From: Deltaproteobacteria bacterium
GTDB taxonomy: Bacteria; Myxococcota_A; UBA9160; SZUA-336
DNA: 15,097 bases
Direction of reading: 5' to 3'
Assembly: GCA_030665705.1 (NCBI GenBank)
Contig: DAOUZG010000012.1
Span: 1 to 15,097, forward strand
This document shows, piece by piece, positions 1,225 to 6,432 of the stretch. The position numbers were made by a program, and so were the translations under genes. Position 1 is the stretch's first letter; each line of letters begins with the position of its first letter. The notes under the pieces were generated by a model. That model ran no database searches. It saw only the letters and a program-made list of their open reading frames with translations, and was not told the DNA's origin.

Positions 1225-2211
1225 CTACCCGCCGATCTGGCTCATCGTTCGCGTGGGCTTCACAAAAAGCCCATCGGTGATGTGGTGCTTCTTCTCCTTG
1301 GTATGGACGGCTCCGACGAAAATGGCCGCCAGATCCTCGTCGCCCGCTCCGGCACGTAGCGGACCGAGAAGGTCGATCTCGTCGAGTGCGAAGAGGCAGG
1401 TCCGGAGCTTCCCATCGGCGGTCAGGCGGATCCGGTTGCACCGCTCGCAGAAGGGCTGCGTAACCGTGTTGATGAAGCCGACCTTGCCGGGCGCGCCGTC
1501 CGCGAAGAGGTAGTCGCGGGCCGGCTGGCTCGGGTGGGTCGTCGGATCCAGCTCGAGGGGGTAGACGGCGTGGATCTGCTCACGCACCTCTTCGCCCGGG
1601 ACGAGGCGTTCCGGGCCCCACACCTGACCCGCTTCCAGTGGCATGAACTCGATGAAGCGCCACTCGTACCCGCGTTCCCGCGCGATGCGTACCAAGTCGA
1701 GAATCTCTCCGTCGTTCACGCCCCGGATCGGTACCGTGTTGACGCGAATGGGACGCATGCCGACCTTCTGGGCCGTCTCGAGACCCTCGAGGACCGCTTC
1801 GAGGCGCTTGCGCTGGGCCATCCGGAAGAAGGTCTCCGGGTCGAGCGTATCGAGGCTGACGTTGACCCGGTGCAGCCCTGCCTCGTAGAGAGCCTCAGCC
1901 TTGCGTGCGAGTTGCGTCCCGTTCGTGGTGAGCGAGACATCGCGGAGCTCGGGGATGGCCCTCAGATAGGTGATGAGGGTCTCCAGGTCCCTTCGGAGGA
2001 GCGGCTCCCCACCGGTGATCCTGATCTTGCGGACCCCCTGTCCAACCGCCACCCGGCTGATCCGTGCGACCTCCTCCAACGTGAGGATCTCCCGCCGCGG
2101 AACCCACTCGATGTCTTCGTCCGGGAGGCAGTAGACGCACCGCAGGTCGCACCGGTCCGTGACGGAGATCCGCAGGTTCTCGATCACCCGGTCGAACCGG
2201 TCGACCAGCAT
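1225..2211 (-). CDS. moaA: GTP 3',8-cyclase MoaA (molybdenum cofactor biosynthesis)
   Basis: This radical-SAM enzyme carries out the first step of molybdopterin synthesis, rearranging GTP to 3',8-cyclo-GTP, which MoaC then converts to cPMP. All hallmarks are present: the N-terminal cluster C21-x3-C25-x2-C28 (CDLRCVYC), the SAM motif GGEP at 68-71, the second 4Fe-4S site C255-x2-C258-x13-C272, and the invariant C-terminal Gly-Gly (327-328). Its 328 residues fit the family. I chose the ATG at 2211, which gives the usual MLVDRFDRVI start; in-frame ATG codons at 2229 and 2265 would add 6 or 18 unusual residues. No other moa or mob gene is in the window. It heads the moaA-folB operon and is divergent from the hydrolase, with a 238-nt gap that I could not assign a clear minus-strand promoter. 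Confidence 0.96.
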   Translation of the reverse strand: MLVDRFDRVIENLRISVTDRCDLRCVYCLPDEDIEWVPRREILTLEEVARISRVAVGQGVRKIRITGGEPLLRRDLETLITYLRAIPELRDVSLTTNGTQLARKAEALYEAGLHRVNVSLDTLDPETFFRMAQRKRLEAVLEGLETAQKVGMRPIRVNTVPIRGVNDGEILDLVRIARERGYEWRFIEFMPLEAGQVWGPERLVPGEEVREQIHAVYPLELDPTTHPSQPARDYLFADGAPGKVGFINTVTQPFCERCNRIRLTADGKLRTCLFALDEIDLLGPLRAGAGDEDLAAIFVGAVHTKEKKHHITDGLFVKPTRTMSQIGG

Positions 2212-2258
2212 CCTGCAAGGGTACCGCATCCGGGCTGGAGCAGGGCCGACGCGGCGCT

Positions 2259-2287
2259 TTGACAAGAGCTGGCCCGCTCCTTATGCT
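2259..2287 (+). promoter_or_regulatory. sigma70-type promoter for the hydrolase-aminotransferase operon
   Basis: A perfect -35 TTGACA (2259-2264) lies exactly 17 nt from a good -10 TATGCT (2282-2287). This is the strongest promoter-like match I found in the window. Transcription would start near 2294, about 155 nt before the hydrolase ATG and only a few nt before the ATG of the possible arginine-rich leader. Confidence 0.6.
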
Positions 2288-2297
2288 CCGCGCGCCC

Positions 2298-2357
2298 ATG
2301 ATTCAGCCGTTGCGACCTCGCGCCCGCATCCGTACCCGGTCCCGGCACCGCTCCTAG
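2298..2357 (+). CDS. possible arginine-rich leader peptide (attenuator ORF)
   Basis: An ATG at 2298 opens a 19-codon frame, MIQPLRPRARIRTRSRHRS, ending at TAG 2355-2357. Seven of the 19 codons are arginine (CGA, CGC, CGC, CGT, CGG, CGG, CGC), and every second residue from 6 to 18 is Arg. The same stretch can be read as seven degenerate CGNNCC hexamers. It sits right behind the predicted promoter and upstream of an operon containing an ArgD-like aminotransferase, and its last codons form the 5' arm of a hairpin. By analogy with amino-acid leader peptides, ribosome stalling on Arg codons could control that hairpin. Weak points are the lack of a Shine-Dalgarno sequence (the transcript would be nearly leaderless) and the possibility that GC-rich low complexity gives the pattern. 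Confidence 0.35.
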   Translation: MIQPLRPRARIRTRSRHRS

Positions 2358-2373
2358 CGACCGGAGCCGGGAC
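2339..2373 (+). promoter_or_regulatory. leader hairpin 1, overlapping the end of the Arg mini-ORF
   Basis: GTCCCGGC (2339-2346) is the exact reverse complement of GCCGGGAC (2366-2373), so an 8-bp stem encloses the mini-ORF stop codon. An alternative fold pairs GCTCC (2350-2354) with GGAGC (2363-2367) and GTCCC with GGGAC. A ribosome stalled on the arginine codons would occupy the 5' arm. No U-tract follows, so this is not an ordinary intrinsic terminator. Confidence 0.35.
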
Positions 2374-2413
2374 TCCATCCGCTCCAATCCCGAACGCTTG
2401 TTCTCGTAACGCA

Positions 2414-2444
2414 CGCCTCGTAGCTCTGCCGCGAGGCGCAGAGG
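2414..2444 (+). promoter_or_regulatory. two mutually exclusive hairpins at the hydrolase ribosome-binding site
   Basis: Structure A pairs CGCCTCG (2414-2420) with CGAGGCG (2432-2438), leaving the Shine-Dalgarno GAGG (2441-2444) free. Structure B pairs CTCTGC (2424-2429), from the loop of A, with GCAGAG (2438-2443), covering most of the Shine-Dalgarno. The two cannot form together. The ATG of the hydrolase is at 2450. This arrangement could act as a translational switch, but GC-rich sequence makes chance hairpins common. Confidence 0.35.
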
Positions 2445-2449
2445 TCGTG

Positions 2450-3304
2450 ATGGACCGCATCCCTTTCGGGGAGGCTCCTCTCCCCTACCGATGGCTCGGC
2501 GAGGGCGCAGACCCGCTGGTGTTGATCCCGGGTTTAGGCGGCAAAGGAACGAGTTGGGAGCCGTTCCTATCCGCAGCCTGCGCTCGCTTTCGAACTCTTG
2601 CCTTCGACCCCCCCGGGTCGGGAGCCGCCCCCGCGCTCCGCGGCCCCGTCACGATCCGTCAGCTGGCACGCGCCACGCTCGCGCTTCTGGATCATGTCGG
2701 AATCGAACGCACCGCCGTCATCGGGCGGAGCATGGGGGGAATGATCGCCCAGGAACTCGCACTGCTCGCGCCTGAACGGGTGAGCCGACTCGTGCTGGTG
2801 TCGACGACGGCGCAGACGGACCCTCATCTCGCCGAGGTCTTCGAGCTGTGGGCACGTATGGCGGAGCTCGGCGTGCCGGCAGAGGTTCGACACCGCACAA
2901 CGATGCTCTGGTGTCTGGGGGCTCGGGCCGTCGCCGACAGCGACCGCGCCAGAGCCTACCTGCGCGGGAAGACGAGCACCGATCGACCGGCGGACTACGC
3001 GCTTCAGGCCCGGGCCTGCGCGAAGCACGATGCTCTGGGGCGGCTTCCGGGCCTGCGGGTCCCCACCCTCGTGGTTGCCGGCACGGATGACCGCCTGACG
3101 CCGACCCGGCACGCGGACGGGCTGGCCCGCGCGATCCCGAGCGCCCGCCTCCTGTACATTGCAGATGTCGGCCACTTCCCGTATGTGGAGGCACCGCAGG
3201 AGTTCCAGAAGGGAGTGCTGGAGTTCCTGCACGAGAAGTCGAACGGAACGTCCCCCGAGCCGGAGGAAGACCCATCATGTCCAGACGTTTCGATGCTCTC
3301 GTGA
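2450..3304 (+). CDS. alpha/beta-hydrolase family protein
   Basis: This is a 284-residue alpha/beta-hydrolase, probably an esterase, lactonase or C-C hydrolase acting in the cytoplasm. The oxyanion-hole loop PGLGG lies at 27-31, the nucleophile elbow GRSMGG puts Ser94 at the centre, the acid is D214 in GTDDRLTP, and the histidine is H242 in DVGHFPY. The order and spacing resemble 3-oxoadipate enol-lactonase-type hydrolases, but no substrate can be assigned. The ATG at 2450 is supported by GAGG at 2441-2444 with 5-nt spacing; a GTG at 2447 is also possible. The frame runs open further upstream, but that extension is Pro/Ala/Arg-rich and overlaps the promoter. The last 28 nt overlap the aminotransferase gene, indicating translational coupling. 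The final 20 residues are polar and likely disordered. Confidence 0.88.
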   Translation: MDRIPFGEAPLPYRWLGEGADPLVLIPGLGGKGTSWEPFLSAACARFRTLAFDPPGSGAAPALRGPVTIRQLARATLALLDHVGIERTAVIGRSMGGMIAQELALLAPERVSRLVLVSTTAQTDPHLAEVFELWARMAELGVPAEVRHRTTMLWCLGARAVADSDRARAYLRGKTSTDRPADYALQARACAKHDALGRLPGLRVPTLVVAGTDDRLTPTRHADGLARAIPSARLLYIADVGHFPYVEAPQEFQKGVLEFLHEKSNGTSPEPEEDPSCPDVSMLS

Positions 3305-4488
3305 ACCGGGAGTCGAAGGTCTACGTCCAGAGCGCGCGACGATGGCCGCTGGCACTCGTGCGGGGTGAGGGCTCGCGCGTGTGGGACGTCGACGAAAAGG
3401 AATACATCGACCTCACCTCGGGCTGGGGCGTCACCTGCCTCGGCCATGGACATCCCGCCTTGGTCGAGGCGATCTGCGACCAGGCCCGGACGCTCATGCA
3501 GACGACGAATATCGTCTACAGCGAGCCACAGCTGGAACTGGCGGAGCGGCTCGACCGGATCACCCCGGACCCGATCCATCGATCCTTCTTCGTGTCGAGC
3601 GGTGCCGAGGCAAACGAGGGTGCCCTCAAGCTCGCGCACGGCGCGACCGGACGCCCGCGGTTCGTCGCGACTCACGGAAGCTTCCACGGCCGCACCCTCG
3701 GGGCGATGGGAGCACTCGGCCAGGAGAAGCACCGCGGTCGGTGGAACGCGATCATCCGCGAGGCGACGTTGGTGCCGTACGGGGACCTCGAGGCGGCACG
3801 AGGGGCCCTGGGGCCCGACGTCGCGGGTTTCCTCGTCGAGCCCATTCAGGGGGAAGGGGGCGTTAACGTACCCGCCGCCGACTACCTCCCGGGGCTCCGG
3901 AAGGCGTGCCACGAGGCAGGGGCGCTTCTGATTCTGGACGAGATCCAGACCGGGATCGGACGGACCGGCCGATGGTTCGCCCTCGAGCACTCCGGGGTCG
4001 TCCCAGACATCCTGACCGTGGGGAAGGGACTCGGAGGTGGCGTTCCGATCGCCGCGTTCCTCGGAACGGAGGCGGTCATGGCGACCGTCCAGCTCGGCGA
4101 CCACGGGGGGACCTACGCGGGGAATCTGCTCTGCTGCCGTGCGGCGGCGACCGTGCTGCGCGTGATCGAGGAAGAAGGGCTGGTCCAGCGCGCGGATGCG
4201 CTCGGAGAACGCATCCGGGATCGCCTGCGCGAGCTGGCCGGACGGTTCGGCGACCGAGTGGAGGAGGTCCGAGGGCTCGGTCTCCTGATCGGATTCCTGC
4301 TCCGAAACCCCGAAGACGCCGCCCAGCTCCACACGCGTCTACGCGAGAGGGGCGTGCTCACGAACCTGACCGCCGAGCGGGTGATCCGAATCTTCCCCGC
4401 GCTCAACGTTCCGGAAGCCGACCTCGACAAGGGGCTCGACACGCTCGAATCGGTCCTCGCGGAAGGGGCGTCGAGGGGCAAGGGCTGA
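3277..4488 (+). CDS. argD: class-III PLP aminotransferase, acetylornithine aminotransferase-like
   Basis: It is a 403-residue fold-type I, class-III aminotransferase. The family's ArgD branch moves an amino group between glutamate and N-acetylglutamate semialdehyde in arginine synthesis. Visible elements are the SSGAEANEGALK phosphate-binding segment (107-118), the GSFHGRT loop, D221 and Q224 of LDEIQTGIGRTG, and the PLP lysine K250 in VGKGLGGGVPI. The N-terminal pattern LGHGHPALVEAI followed by NIVYSEPQ is typical of ArgD. Other omega-aminotransferases, such as ornithine, 4-aminobutyrate or LysW-aminoadipate types, are possible, and no other arg gene is in view. The ATG at 3277 has GGAGGAAG at 3262-3269 with 7-nt spacing and lies inside the 3' end of the hydrolase gene. 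A possible Arg leader upstream would support a role in arginine metabolism. Confidence 0.85.
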   Translation: MSRRFDALVNRESKVYVQSARRWPLALVRGEGSRVWDVDEKEYIDLTSGWGVTCLGHGHPALVEAICDQARTLMQTTNIVYSEPQLELAERLDRITPDPIHRSFFVSSGAEANEGALKLAHGATGRPRFVATHGSFHGRTLGAMGALGQEKHRGRWNAIIREATLVPYGDLEAARGALGPDVAGFLVEPIQGEGGVNVPAADYLPGLRKACHEAGALLILDEIQTGIGRTGRWFALEHSGVVPDILTVGKGLGGGVPIAAFLGTEAVMATVQLGDHGGTYAGNLLCCRAAATVLRVIEEEGLVQRADALGERIRDRLRELAGRFGDRVEEVRGLGLLIGFLLRNPEDAAQLHTRLRERGVLTNLTAERVIRIFPALNVPEADLDKGLDTLESVLAEGASRGKG

Positions 4489-4500
4489 TCTCGGGAACGG

Positions 4501-4526
4501 GACTCGCACCCGAAGCTCGAGTCTTT
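4501..4526. terminator. possible shared terminator between convergent genes
   Basis: GACTCG (4501-4506) and CGAGTC (4518-4523) can form a 6-bp stem with an 11-nt loop, followed by TTT on the plus strand. It lies in the 36-nt gap between the aminotransferase and cytochrome stop codons, where a terminator is expected. The U-tract is short and overlaps the cytochrome stop codon, so support is modest. Confidence 0.3.
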
Positions 4527-6432
4527 ACCTACCGATCAGCAGCTCGATCGCGGCTACGCCCATCTCGACGGGGGGCCCCATGCCCGACTTCTTCCACAGA
4601 TCGTAGAAGGCCTTGCCCCAGGTGGGGTAGCGATCGCACTTCCCGCCGTACGGACCCGTCGCCGGGAGGTTCCGGGCTCGACCTCCACAGGCTTGTGTCT
4701 TCTCCCGATCGTGCTGATTCAGAAACTCGACGTATTCTCGGCTGAAGGTCTGGTACAGGAGGTGAGCTTCCACACGAACCGGCCCCTTGGCCGATTTCGG
4801 GATCGCGAACCGGTAGGGCGTGACGTCCCAGTGCTGCCCGTCCGCGTAGTCGTTGTCCTTTGGATCGCGCGGAACGATGAAAGCGCCATCCGCCTGGTAG
4901 GCCGCTTTGTTGTATCCCTTGGGCGGAATCCGATTGTCTTTCCTCACGTCGTTCATCAACACGAAGTGGAAGTGGCTCTCCTTCTCGTCGACCTGTCCAT
5001 CCCGGTTCTCATCGAGGAACGGATACCCCGTTGCGAGGGCGACCTGCTCGTAGACCTTGGTCTCGGGTGTGCGGACGAGATAGCCGTCCTTCAGCATGCC
5101 ATCTTCGAACAGGACCTGGCCGGATGCGTCGACGGCCCGGATCTGAATCCACATCTGCCGTCCCTCGGAGAACCCGGTCGGAAGCTTGTGGCCCGTGTTG
5201 TTCGTGACTTTGACCTTGACCGTGACGTCCTTGCCCTTTTTCACCTCGACCGGTTTATCTACGAAGGCGACCTCGGCCGCCTCTCTCATGAAGGCACGAT
5301 TCCCCTCCGCAGCAGTTCGGTAGGACTCGACGCGGTCCGGAACCGTGTACCCGTAGGGATCACCTCTCCACACCCGATCCACGTCTCCCCAGAGGGCCGG
5401 GAGCACCGGCTCGAGCATCCACGTCTGGGCACCCTCGAAGACCATCGGTTCGTGGCAGTCCTGGCAGGTCTTCTCGTCACGGTAACCGCTCCAGTACCAC
5501 TCGGTGTAGGTCCGTTCGATCGGATGGTTCATATCGGGGATCTCGCCGTCGACCCGGGTCTTGGTCTTGAGCAGCGGATTGGTGACGTCGTGGCAGGTCC
5601 CGCAGAAGTTCGCTTCGGAGAGGAAGTCGTGTACGACATCCACGGATTCCGCCACACAGCTCCCGTCCTCTTCCGTTTCGCTACAGAAGGGACGATTGGG
5701 ATCGACGAAGAAGCCCCCGTTTCCGTTGACCATCACGCTTCCGTTGTACCGTGATTTTCGCTTGGAGGCACCGGTCGCGCGGTGGCAGAAGCCGCAGTCG
5801 ATTCCCTCCATCTCGGCTTCGGACTCCGTCGCGAGGTCGACCTTCCGGGGGTTGCCGGACGGATCGACGGGGTGGCCCCGAAAGGCGGCTCCCCAGAACT
5901 GCCCCTTCAGGAACGGTGCGCTCCGCGTCGGCGGTTCGGAATGGGCCTCCATCCACCCGACCGGGGAGTGGCACCGCAGGCAGAGGTCCGCCGCGATCGG
6001 GAGGATTTCCTCCGGTTGGAGGCTTCCGTCCTGGGCGCGTCGGATGTCCGCATCCAGCTTGTTGGCCTTAAGAAACGCGCCGAGCGGCGAAGAGGGATCC
6101 CCGGGTTCACCCGGCAGAGACGCGATGAGGTTGATCAAGTCCTGGTTCGCAACAGATAGGGTGGCAAAGAAGGCAGGGTCTCGCGTGGCGTTCGCCATGA
6201 TCGTTCCGACCCAGTCCGCGTACTCGCTCTCCTGCTCGTTCGCCCAGTAGGCCGGGGCGCGGAAGCCTCGGGTCACGGGGCGAAGCGACGGACCCTTCTC
6301 CGGGTCGTGCGCCGGAGACGCTCCTCGTGGCTGCGTGGAGTCCGACTCGGTGACGGCCGCCGCGTTCACGTTCGCTGAAGGCCCGAGCAGAAGTAGAACC
6401 CACAGAGCGGTCCATACGAGCTTCGTCCTCAT
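4525..6432 (-). CDS. secreted tetraheme cytochrome c
   Basis: This 635-residue protein has a Sec signal peptide (residues 1-24, cleavage likely after NVNA) and four CXXCH heme sites: C151-H155, C213-H217, C277-H281 and C323-H327. It should therefore be a periplasmic or surface multiheme c-type cytochrome moving electrons. After the heme region comes a beta-rich domain starting near residue 395 with the motif NNTGHKLPTG (411-420), common in large multiheme cytochromes. A textbook 12-residue EF-hand-type calcium loop follows (D474, N476, D478, Q480, D482, E485). The ATG at 6432 has GGAGGGAG at 6438-6445. An open frame continues upstream to 7014 but overlaps another gene out of frame and would bury the signal peptide. 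The redox partner is unknown. It follows the exported protein gene by 50 nt, probably in the same operon. Confidence 0.9.
   Translation of the reverse strand: MRTKLVWTALWVLLLLGPSANVNAAAVTESDSTQPRGASPAHDPEKGPSLRPVTRGFRAPAYWANEQESEYADWVGTIMANATRDPAFFATLSVANQDLINLIASLPGEPGDPSSPLGAFLKANKLDADIRRAQDGSLQPEEILPIAADLCLRCHSPVGWMEAHSEPPTRSAPFLKGQFWGAAFRGHPVDPSGNPRKVDLATESEAEMEGIDCGFCHRATGASKRKSRYNGSVMVNGNGGFFVDPNRPFCSETEEDGSCVAESVDVVHDFLSEANFCGTCHDVTNPLLKTKTRVDGEIPDMNHPIERTYTEWYWSGYRDEKTCQDCHEPMVFEGAQTWMLEPVLPALWGDVDRVWRGDPYGYTVPDRVESYRTAAEGNRAFMREAAEVAFVDKPVEVKKGKDVTVKVKVTNNTGHKLPTGFSEGRQMWIQIRAVDASGQVLFEDGMLKDGYLVRTPETKVYEQVALATGYPFLDENRDGQVDEKESHFHFVLMNDVRKDNRIPPKGYNKAAYQADGAFIVPRDPKDNDYADGQHWDVTPYRFAIPKSAKGPVRVEAHLLYQTFSREYVEFLNQHDREKTQACGGRARNLPATGPYGGKCDRYPTWGKAFYDLWKKSGMGPPVEMGVAAIELLIGR

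Follow-up and report, generated by a model that had tools for sequence, protein, structure and literature searches.

A candidate arginine-sensing leader peptide upstream of a probable acetylornithine aminotransferase gene in a deltaproteobacterial family

Control of biosynthetic operons by leader peptides that respond to the end product is textbook knowledge for tryptophan, histidine and the branched-chain amino acids. In E. coli trpL, the stop codon lies between the arms of the first hairpin. The leader described here, from a window comprising the whole 15,097-nt stretch of DNA analysed (contig DAOUZG010000012.1), shares with trp-, his- and leu-type attenuators an ORF containing end-product codons and a stop inside the first hairpin. 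It differs from them in that a U-tract terminator is lacking and antiterminator pairing does not rise above chance, in that arginine is the amino acid concerned, and in being near-leaderless.

Leaders that sense arginine have been described for other targets; these and the other sources identified by PMC number are cited from excerpts. The orf34 leader of Salmonella speF senses arginine through its Arg codons, with outputs through Rho, ribosome-binding site (RBS) sequestration and RNA decay (PMC6386406). It is the leader of an ornithine decarboxylase and carries an Arg pair at codons 12 and 13 (PMC6386406), whereas the gene here probably belongs to arginine synthesis, and four of the present leader peptides do not match the orf34/DUF2618 peptide family. 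The rbfL leader of S. aureus senses arginine shortage, likewise through Arg codons; unlike the leader described here, it uses AGA/AGG codons, its stalling covers the RBS and lowers expression, and its target is a biofilm regulator (PMC13009471). Among the literature matches listed, in a search whose coverage excludes most subscription journals, the arginine-sensing leaders were those of speF and rbfL, and none was noticed upstream of an arginine-synthesis gene.

Several further systems share single features with this locus. In the actinobacterial LEU element, control codons are proposed to pair with the Shine-Dalgarno box, and leader-peptide attenuation was judged unlikely (excerpt of PMC1262725); that element concerns leucine, involves a pseudoknot and belongs to another phylum, and the codon:RBS pairing of the window is not kept in relatives (none of six below 0.05). 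Mycobacterial cys leader peptides are conserved, with end-product codons near the stop and no terminator; conserved terminator hairpins were sought there and not found (PMC1262725), whereas a conserved stop-in-loop hairpin is present here. The same survey of Actinobacteria, as excerpted, describes T-box control of arginine elsewhere and reports that no conserved RNA structure was detected upstream of arginine operons in that group (PMC1262725). In P. aeruginosa, carA is preceded by a leader peptide and is described as controlled by pyrimidine attenuation (PMC4997734); upstream of hflX, a uORF motif containing a conserved Arg-Leu-Arg has been reported (PMC8632094).

The leader locus and its genes

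The window comes from a genome of 1.99 Mb that is 76% complete. A divergent moaA gene lies upstream of the leader, and the features downstream of it are collected in Table 1. The promoter is the sole sigma-70-type consensus site found on either strand of positions 1800-4800 (shuffle mean 0.2). The ATG of the mini-ORF begins 10 nt past the -10 box, a spacing that would place the transcript start at about 2294-2295. Within MIQPLRPRARIRTRSRHRS, codons 6, 8, 10, 12, 14, 16 and 18 encode arginine. Direct reading thus agreed with a preliminary description of this DNA, which had correctly placed the promoter and had noted 19 codons with seven arginines at every second position.

That description had also cautioned that GC-rich DNA readily yields Arg codons and hairpins. 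The caution holds for arginine content: an ATG-initiated ORF with at least seven Arg codons arose in 408 of 5000 shuffles of positions 2230-2449, so richness alone is unremarkable. It does not hold for the alternating run of seven, which arose in none of the same 5000 shuffles. This strict alternation is peculiar to the window and absent from the mini-ORFs of relatives.

The first gene past the leader encodes an alpha/beta hydrolase, for which PcaD was the best NCBIfam equivalog, at a score far below its cut-off (150.5 against 255.85). The hydrolase is tied to argD in four of the seven leader loci. The second gene encodes a class-III aminotransferase that scores 394.8 against the ArgD model TIGR00707, just under the cut-off of 410.05. 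This protein or its counterpart was the top TIGR00707 match in seven of the eight family genomes searched, with 394-417 bits around the same cut-off, and in each of the seven the runner-up trailed by 97 bits or more. This search covered six of the seven leader-bearing genomes (all except G001), and the leader-linked aminotransferase was best in five of them. The closest solved structures are acetylornithine aminotransferases, so that the earlier assignment of an ArgD-like gene to the operon stands. In G010, a second ArgD (G010:C81:48053-49192, L156) scores 487 bits, better than the leader-linked protein.

The Arg_repressor_C domain was detected in none of the 11 family genomes by a single domain model that was positive in 8 of 14 controls. 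Since no more than 5 of the 11 genomes combine a completeness of 90% or higher with contamination of 5% or lower, the absence of ArgR is uncertain.

Table 1. Positions of the leader and neighbouring features in the window
Feature	Position	Strand	Description
Promoter TTGACA-17-TATGCT	2259..2287	+	TTGACA 2259-2264, 17-nt spacer, TATGCT 2282-2287
Leader mini-ORF, MIQPLRPRARIRTRSRHRS-stop	2298..2357	+	ATG 2298 to TAG 2355-2357; counterparts in G001, G003, G006, G008, G009 and G010
Leader codons 3 (end) to 10	2306..2327	+	Complementary to hydrolase RBS and start codon, in the window only
Codon 12 CGT	2331..2333	+	Sole Arg codon invariant in 7/7 leaders; distance in the window from its first base to the hairpin arm, 7 nt
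Conserved hairpin	2338..2374	+	Arms 2338-2346 / 2366-2374; stop codon 2355-2357 in loop
Two exclusive local hairpins of the preliminary description	2415..2443	+	2415-2420/2432-2437; 2424-2429/2438-2443
Hydrolase Shine-Dalgarno and AUG region	2431..2453	+	Partner of 2306-2327
Alpha/beta hydrolase (Abhydrolase_1)	2450..3304	+	First gene past leader
Class-III aminotransferase, probable ArgD (acetylornithine aminotransferase)	3277..4488	+	TIGR00707 score, structure match

Distribution and conservation of the leader

Of 11 family genomes, 7 have the same element upstream of the same class-III aminotransferase gene; counting just those with readable upstream DNA, the figure is seven of eight. The element comprises a TTGACA promoter, an AUG 9-10 nt past the -10 box, a mini-ORF of 19-34 codons, and a GC-rich hairpin whose loop holds the stop codon. 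We regard the leader as very probably real and conserved. TTGACA precedes the mini-ORF in all seven, with a spacer of 17 nt in six and 18 nt in G001.

Three of the relatives (G001, G008 and G010) carry close homologs of the hydrolase with the same aminotransferase behind. Upstream, they share TTGACA, a spacer of 17 or 18 nt, the -10 sequence (T/C)ATNNT and an ATG 9-10 nt past it, followed by the Arg-rich mini-ORFs MKFLAPSHHECLPGRALRSRSRSHRRG, MIPSQRQTAALLLAIPSTPIRRTRTGSPRRG and MFTAQARAPRRSRTGPPRRRGSVRLD, respectively. A promoter-to-ATG pattern derived from these three leaders and that of the window gave 14 sites in 12 of 90 class genomes: the four source leaders, two new ones (G006 and G009), and eight unrelated sites without a leader. 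The mini-ORFs of G006 and G009, MPAAIVICVSARRARTGSHRRG and MLVPLAECVRDFAPAPMPAAAVVRRARTGSLRHG, lie directly upstream of the aminotransferase gene, with no hydrolase between; their promoters belonged to the search pattern and were therefore selected, whereas peptide and hairpin were not. The seventh leader, in G003, has a different -10 box and was spotted by eye (MLRLRVPIAHRSLRTESHRCGDGSL). The hydrolase gene lies between leader and aminotransferase gene in four of the seven loci and is missing from this position in G003, G006 and G009; therefore, the leader goes with the aminotransferase.

As for the remaining family members, G005 has the aminotransferase and lacks the leader, with a shortened hydrolase-like frame (L126:1101-1520) directly upstream. 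A genomic deletion or an assembly fault could explain both peculiarities of this locus. The contigs of G004 and G002 end at or inside the aminotransferase gene, and G007 gave no aminotransferase match at 1e-110.

The reading frame from ATG to the invariant CGT is open in all seven leaders despite lengths of 19-34 codons. The chance of six relatives all keeping the frame is roughly (1/3)^6, or about 0.0014, a figure to be taken as a guide only, with the ATG picked by script and G003 found by eye. G006 and G009, which belong to the same genus, differ in their leaders by 36 bases, equal to 12 whole codons, while three blocks are kept: the promoter with the start, the core, and the gene start. An open frame at varying lengths, together with this 36-base difference between kept blocks, is the pattern of a translated leader.

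The mini-ORFs have only their C-terminal end in common, approximately R-x-R-T-G-S-x-R-R-G-stop, with the codon consensus CGC-xCC-CGT-AC(C/G)-GGG-TCC-CxC-CGG-CGC-GGA-TAG. An alignment of the seven cores contains no gap between CGT and the hairpin arm in any row and has 15 invariant columns, which include CGTA, beginning with the Arg codon CGT, and much of the lower stem. In four genomes, the arginine preceding CGC varies synonymously, being encoded by CGT, CGC or CGA. No synonymous variant of CGT itself occurs, and the constraint must therefore lie in part on the nucleotides of the RNA or DNA and not on arginine as such. Each leader has three to five Arg codons within the ten codons around CGT; other Arg positions vary, and in the window, in G003 and in G009 some are occupied by His, Ser, Leu or Cys. 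Conservation of the Arg codons in relatives had been put forward as a check on the preliminary description. The mini-ORF, Arg codons and 3' hairpin are indeed kept in six other genomes, but only one of the Arg codons is invariant.

A covariance model (R1) was built from the seven leader cores. The scores of the leaders themselves (39-85 bits) are circular, and only the lack of other matches is informative. Among the other 83 class genomes, scanned with strict filters, nothing exceeded 33 bits; 21 further genomes had matches at E up to 1, and no genome contained a second comparable copy. A second match in G006 (E 0.035) corresponds to the same hairpin read on the opposite strand. A scan of a 377-genome phylum sample, also with strict filters and at E up to 0.01, gave nothing new. 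Its sole extra match, in G058 (33 bits, E 0.0065), lies where both strands are occupied by long open frames and was taken as chance.

Hairpin, termination signals and the ribosome-binding site

The hairpin seen earlier at the 3' end of the mini-ORF is borne out by folding: its arms, picked by eye, give z -4.0, with 1 of 300 shuffles as good; for the longer segment 2320-2380, z is -2.4 (3 of 200 shuffles). In all seven leaders the stop codon lies in the loop, even in G003 and G010, whose ORFs continue for 4 and 6 more codons. With arms again picked by eye, z-scores across the seven range from -1.7 to -4.6. The weakest hairpin is that of G010 (z -1.7, 18 of 300 shuffles as good), where the fold of the entire leader does not surpass that of shuffles (z -0.18). 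The two arms pair in 92.9% of alignment cells, against 35-55% with the partner slid. Across only seven sequences, both partners change in 2 of 13 pairs, a level of covariation that is not significant, since 131 of 500 shuffles reach it.

A scan of positions 1800-4800 found no intrinsic terminator, as the preliminary description had stated, and reading past the hairpin in relatives revealed no U-tract save TTTT in G008. Antiterminator (2:3) pairing of the 3' arm with downstream sequence was tried and rejected; it exceeded shuffles at 0.05 in none of the seven leaders (fractions 0.16-0.96). Because these terminator and antiterminator features were looked for and not found, we do not class the element as a classical attenuator; it would work like a leader-peptide regulator. 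Rfam, T-box models included, gave no match at the gathering score over the whole window. Pfam, searched at E up to 10, had no match for the four longest of the seven peptides (all but the 19-aa window peptide and those of G006 and G003); against NCBIfam, the same four drew a single model, at chance level (E 0.27) and below its cut-off.

In the window, the stretch from the end of codon 3 to codon 10 is predicted to pair with the hydrolase RBS at -39.5 kcal/mol. This energy was reached by none of 20000 dinucleotide shuffles, the best of which gave -39.2; among 20000 codon-order shuffles, 6 were as good. When a ribosome footprint, necessarily a crude model, was blocked codon by codon, the predicted openness of the RBS rose from 0.07 in the free RNA to 0.31-0.50 with the ribosome at codons 2-12, peaked at codon 12, and fell from 0.19 to 0.07 between codon 13 and the stop codon. 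The preliminary description had instead proposed a two-state hairpin at 2414-2443, one form of which would sequester the Shine-Dalgarno sequence. Both local hairpins exist, but the region 2396-2475 folds at chance (z -0.57, 55 of 200 shuffles), and the local sequestration is replaced by the stronger pairing with codons 3-10, which is confined to the window.

Pairing of the leader with the RBS was above shuffles in none of the six relatives (fractions 0.148-0.850). RBS sequestration as a mechanism common to the seven leaders was accordingly rejected: in ribosome-blocking folds, opening at the conserved CGT occurred in the window only. The G008 RBS is predicted to open mildly at codons 2-9, and that of G009 from codon 30 to the stop. 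Minimum-energy folds of G008 and G001 tie the leader start to the gene start, with duplexes not above shuffles (0.626 and 0.149); these candidates were also set aside. The RBS pairing of the window may be a species-level read-out added to a shared sensor. In G001, the spacer between leader and hydrolase gene (L032:1345-1445) is the longest of the seven and has several strong predicted hairpins.

Proposed control and alternative explanations

On balance, we propose that the element is a cis-acting leader-peptide regulator of the probable argD operon that couples the supply of Arg-tRNA to expression; arginine is likely the signal sensed. As judged from promoter spacing, transcription would start a few bases upstream of the mini-ORF, and ribosomes would load near the 5' end. 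They would translate the 19-34 codons, the last ten or so Arg-rich, up to the stop codon, which lies in the loop of the predicted hairpin. With arginyl-tRNA plentiful, the ribosome would run through and be released at the stop, the hairpin would close, and expression would fall. With arginyl-tRNA scarce, the ribosome would wait at Arg codons and, when held at the invariant CGU, would cover the 5' arm and keep the hairpin open, and expression would rise, provided that closing of the hairpin is inhibitory. The window may have a second, more direct output, in which a ribosome at codons 2-12 would prevent the predicted pairing of codons 3-10 with the hydrolase RBS. In relatives, where the hairpin would act alone, expression could be lowered through release of RNA polymerase, Rho, translation or RNA decay.

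A more specific version, which we advance only tentatively, is that a family lacking ArgR controls arginine synthesis through a near-leaderless peptide whose sole shared switch is a stop-in-loop hairpin held open at a fixed CGU, with neither terminator nor antiterminator, and to which species-specific read-outs, such as pairing of the Arg-codon stretch with the RBS, have been added. If true, a lineage without a detectable arginine repressor could still regulate its arginine pathway, and a minimal attenuator would consist of one hairpin and one fixed codon, portable to a laboratory host and testable codon by codon.

Arrest peptides such as TnaC and SpeFL stall near the stop codon on sensing a small molecule. 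Similarly, the C-terminal motif (~RxRTGSxRRG-stop) might stall the ribosome at or near the stop on sensing ornithine or arginine, holding the hairpin open. Conservation falls on the final ten or so codons, ending with the stop, and the N-terminal part varies in length and sequence, as this explanation would have it. However, the conserved codons coincide in part with a hairpin arm, and this overlap can account for their conservation even if the peptide has no function; G003 and G010 run 4 and 6 codons beyond the motif before stopping; and the database searches placed the four longest peptides in no family. We therefore consider an arrest peptide unlikely.

The conserved core could also be a protein-binding or structured RNA or DNA element in which the open frame is incidental. 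Invariance of CGTA and several flanking bases at the nucleotide level is consistent with such an element, as is the sequence CCCGTACGGG in G008 and G009, which is palindromic. Against it, the frame is kept in all seven leaders at 19-34 codons, with the ATG always 9-10 nt past the -10 box and the stop always in the loop, and positions 2240-2470 of the window gave no Rfam match at E up to 1. This explanation, too, appears improbable.

Rho-dependent attenuation, in which the leader ribosome would govern access of Rho to the untranslated, C-rich spacer of 90-181 nt, is one possible output of the regulator favoured above and not a full alternative to it; as an explanation in its own right it seems quite unlikely. 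The lack of a U-tract terminator would suit it, and C exceeds G in the spacers of all seven leaders, though the excess is mild. Rho (TIGR00767) was found in five of the seven leader-bearing genomes, including that of the window. At 1e-20, however, it had no match in six of the 11 family genomes (G002, G004, G005, G006, G007 and G010; four of them more than 90% complete), among them the leader-bearing G006 and G010, both at least 95% complete.

Chance production of CGN codons and hairpins by GC-rich DNA, to which the Arg-rich ORFs in shuffles and the window's R1 score of 39 bits, close to the best non-leader class match (33 bits, G058), might point, is very unlikely and appears already disfavoured by the comparative data, in that the leader is kept upstream of the same gene across genera and non-leader class matches stay at or below 33 bits against 39-85 for the leaders, the latter scores being partly circular.

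Turning to the wider class, the aminotransferase was found at 1e-110 in 49 genomes; 30 loci were read, 21 of them outside the family, and 19 were left out. Five of the 21 (L135, L136, L137, L140 and L151) have TTGACG, a nearby -10 box and an ATG at leader-like spacing. These ATGs look like the start of the gene itself, so the transcripts would be leaderless. The preliminary description had raised the near-leaderless position of the mini-ORF as an objection. The spacing is real, but the objection is weak, given the similar spacing at these five argD-like loci and the Sinorhizobium meliloti trpL leader, itself leaderless, with a transcript that starts at the trpL ATG (PMC7298713, excerpt). From the five loci, we infer that leaderless starts may be common in the class and that the leader is a family-level addition. 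With promoters so alike, it looks as if the leader had been inserted downstream of an ancestral leaderless start.
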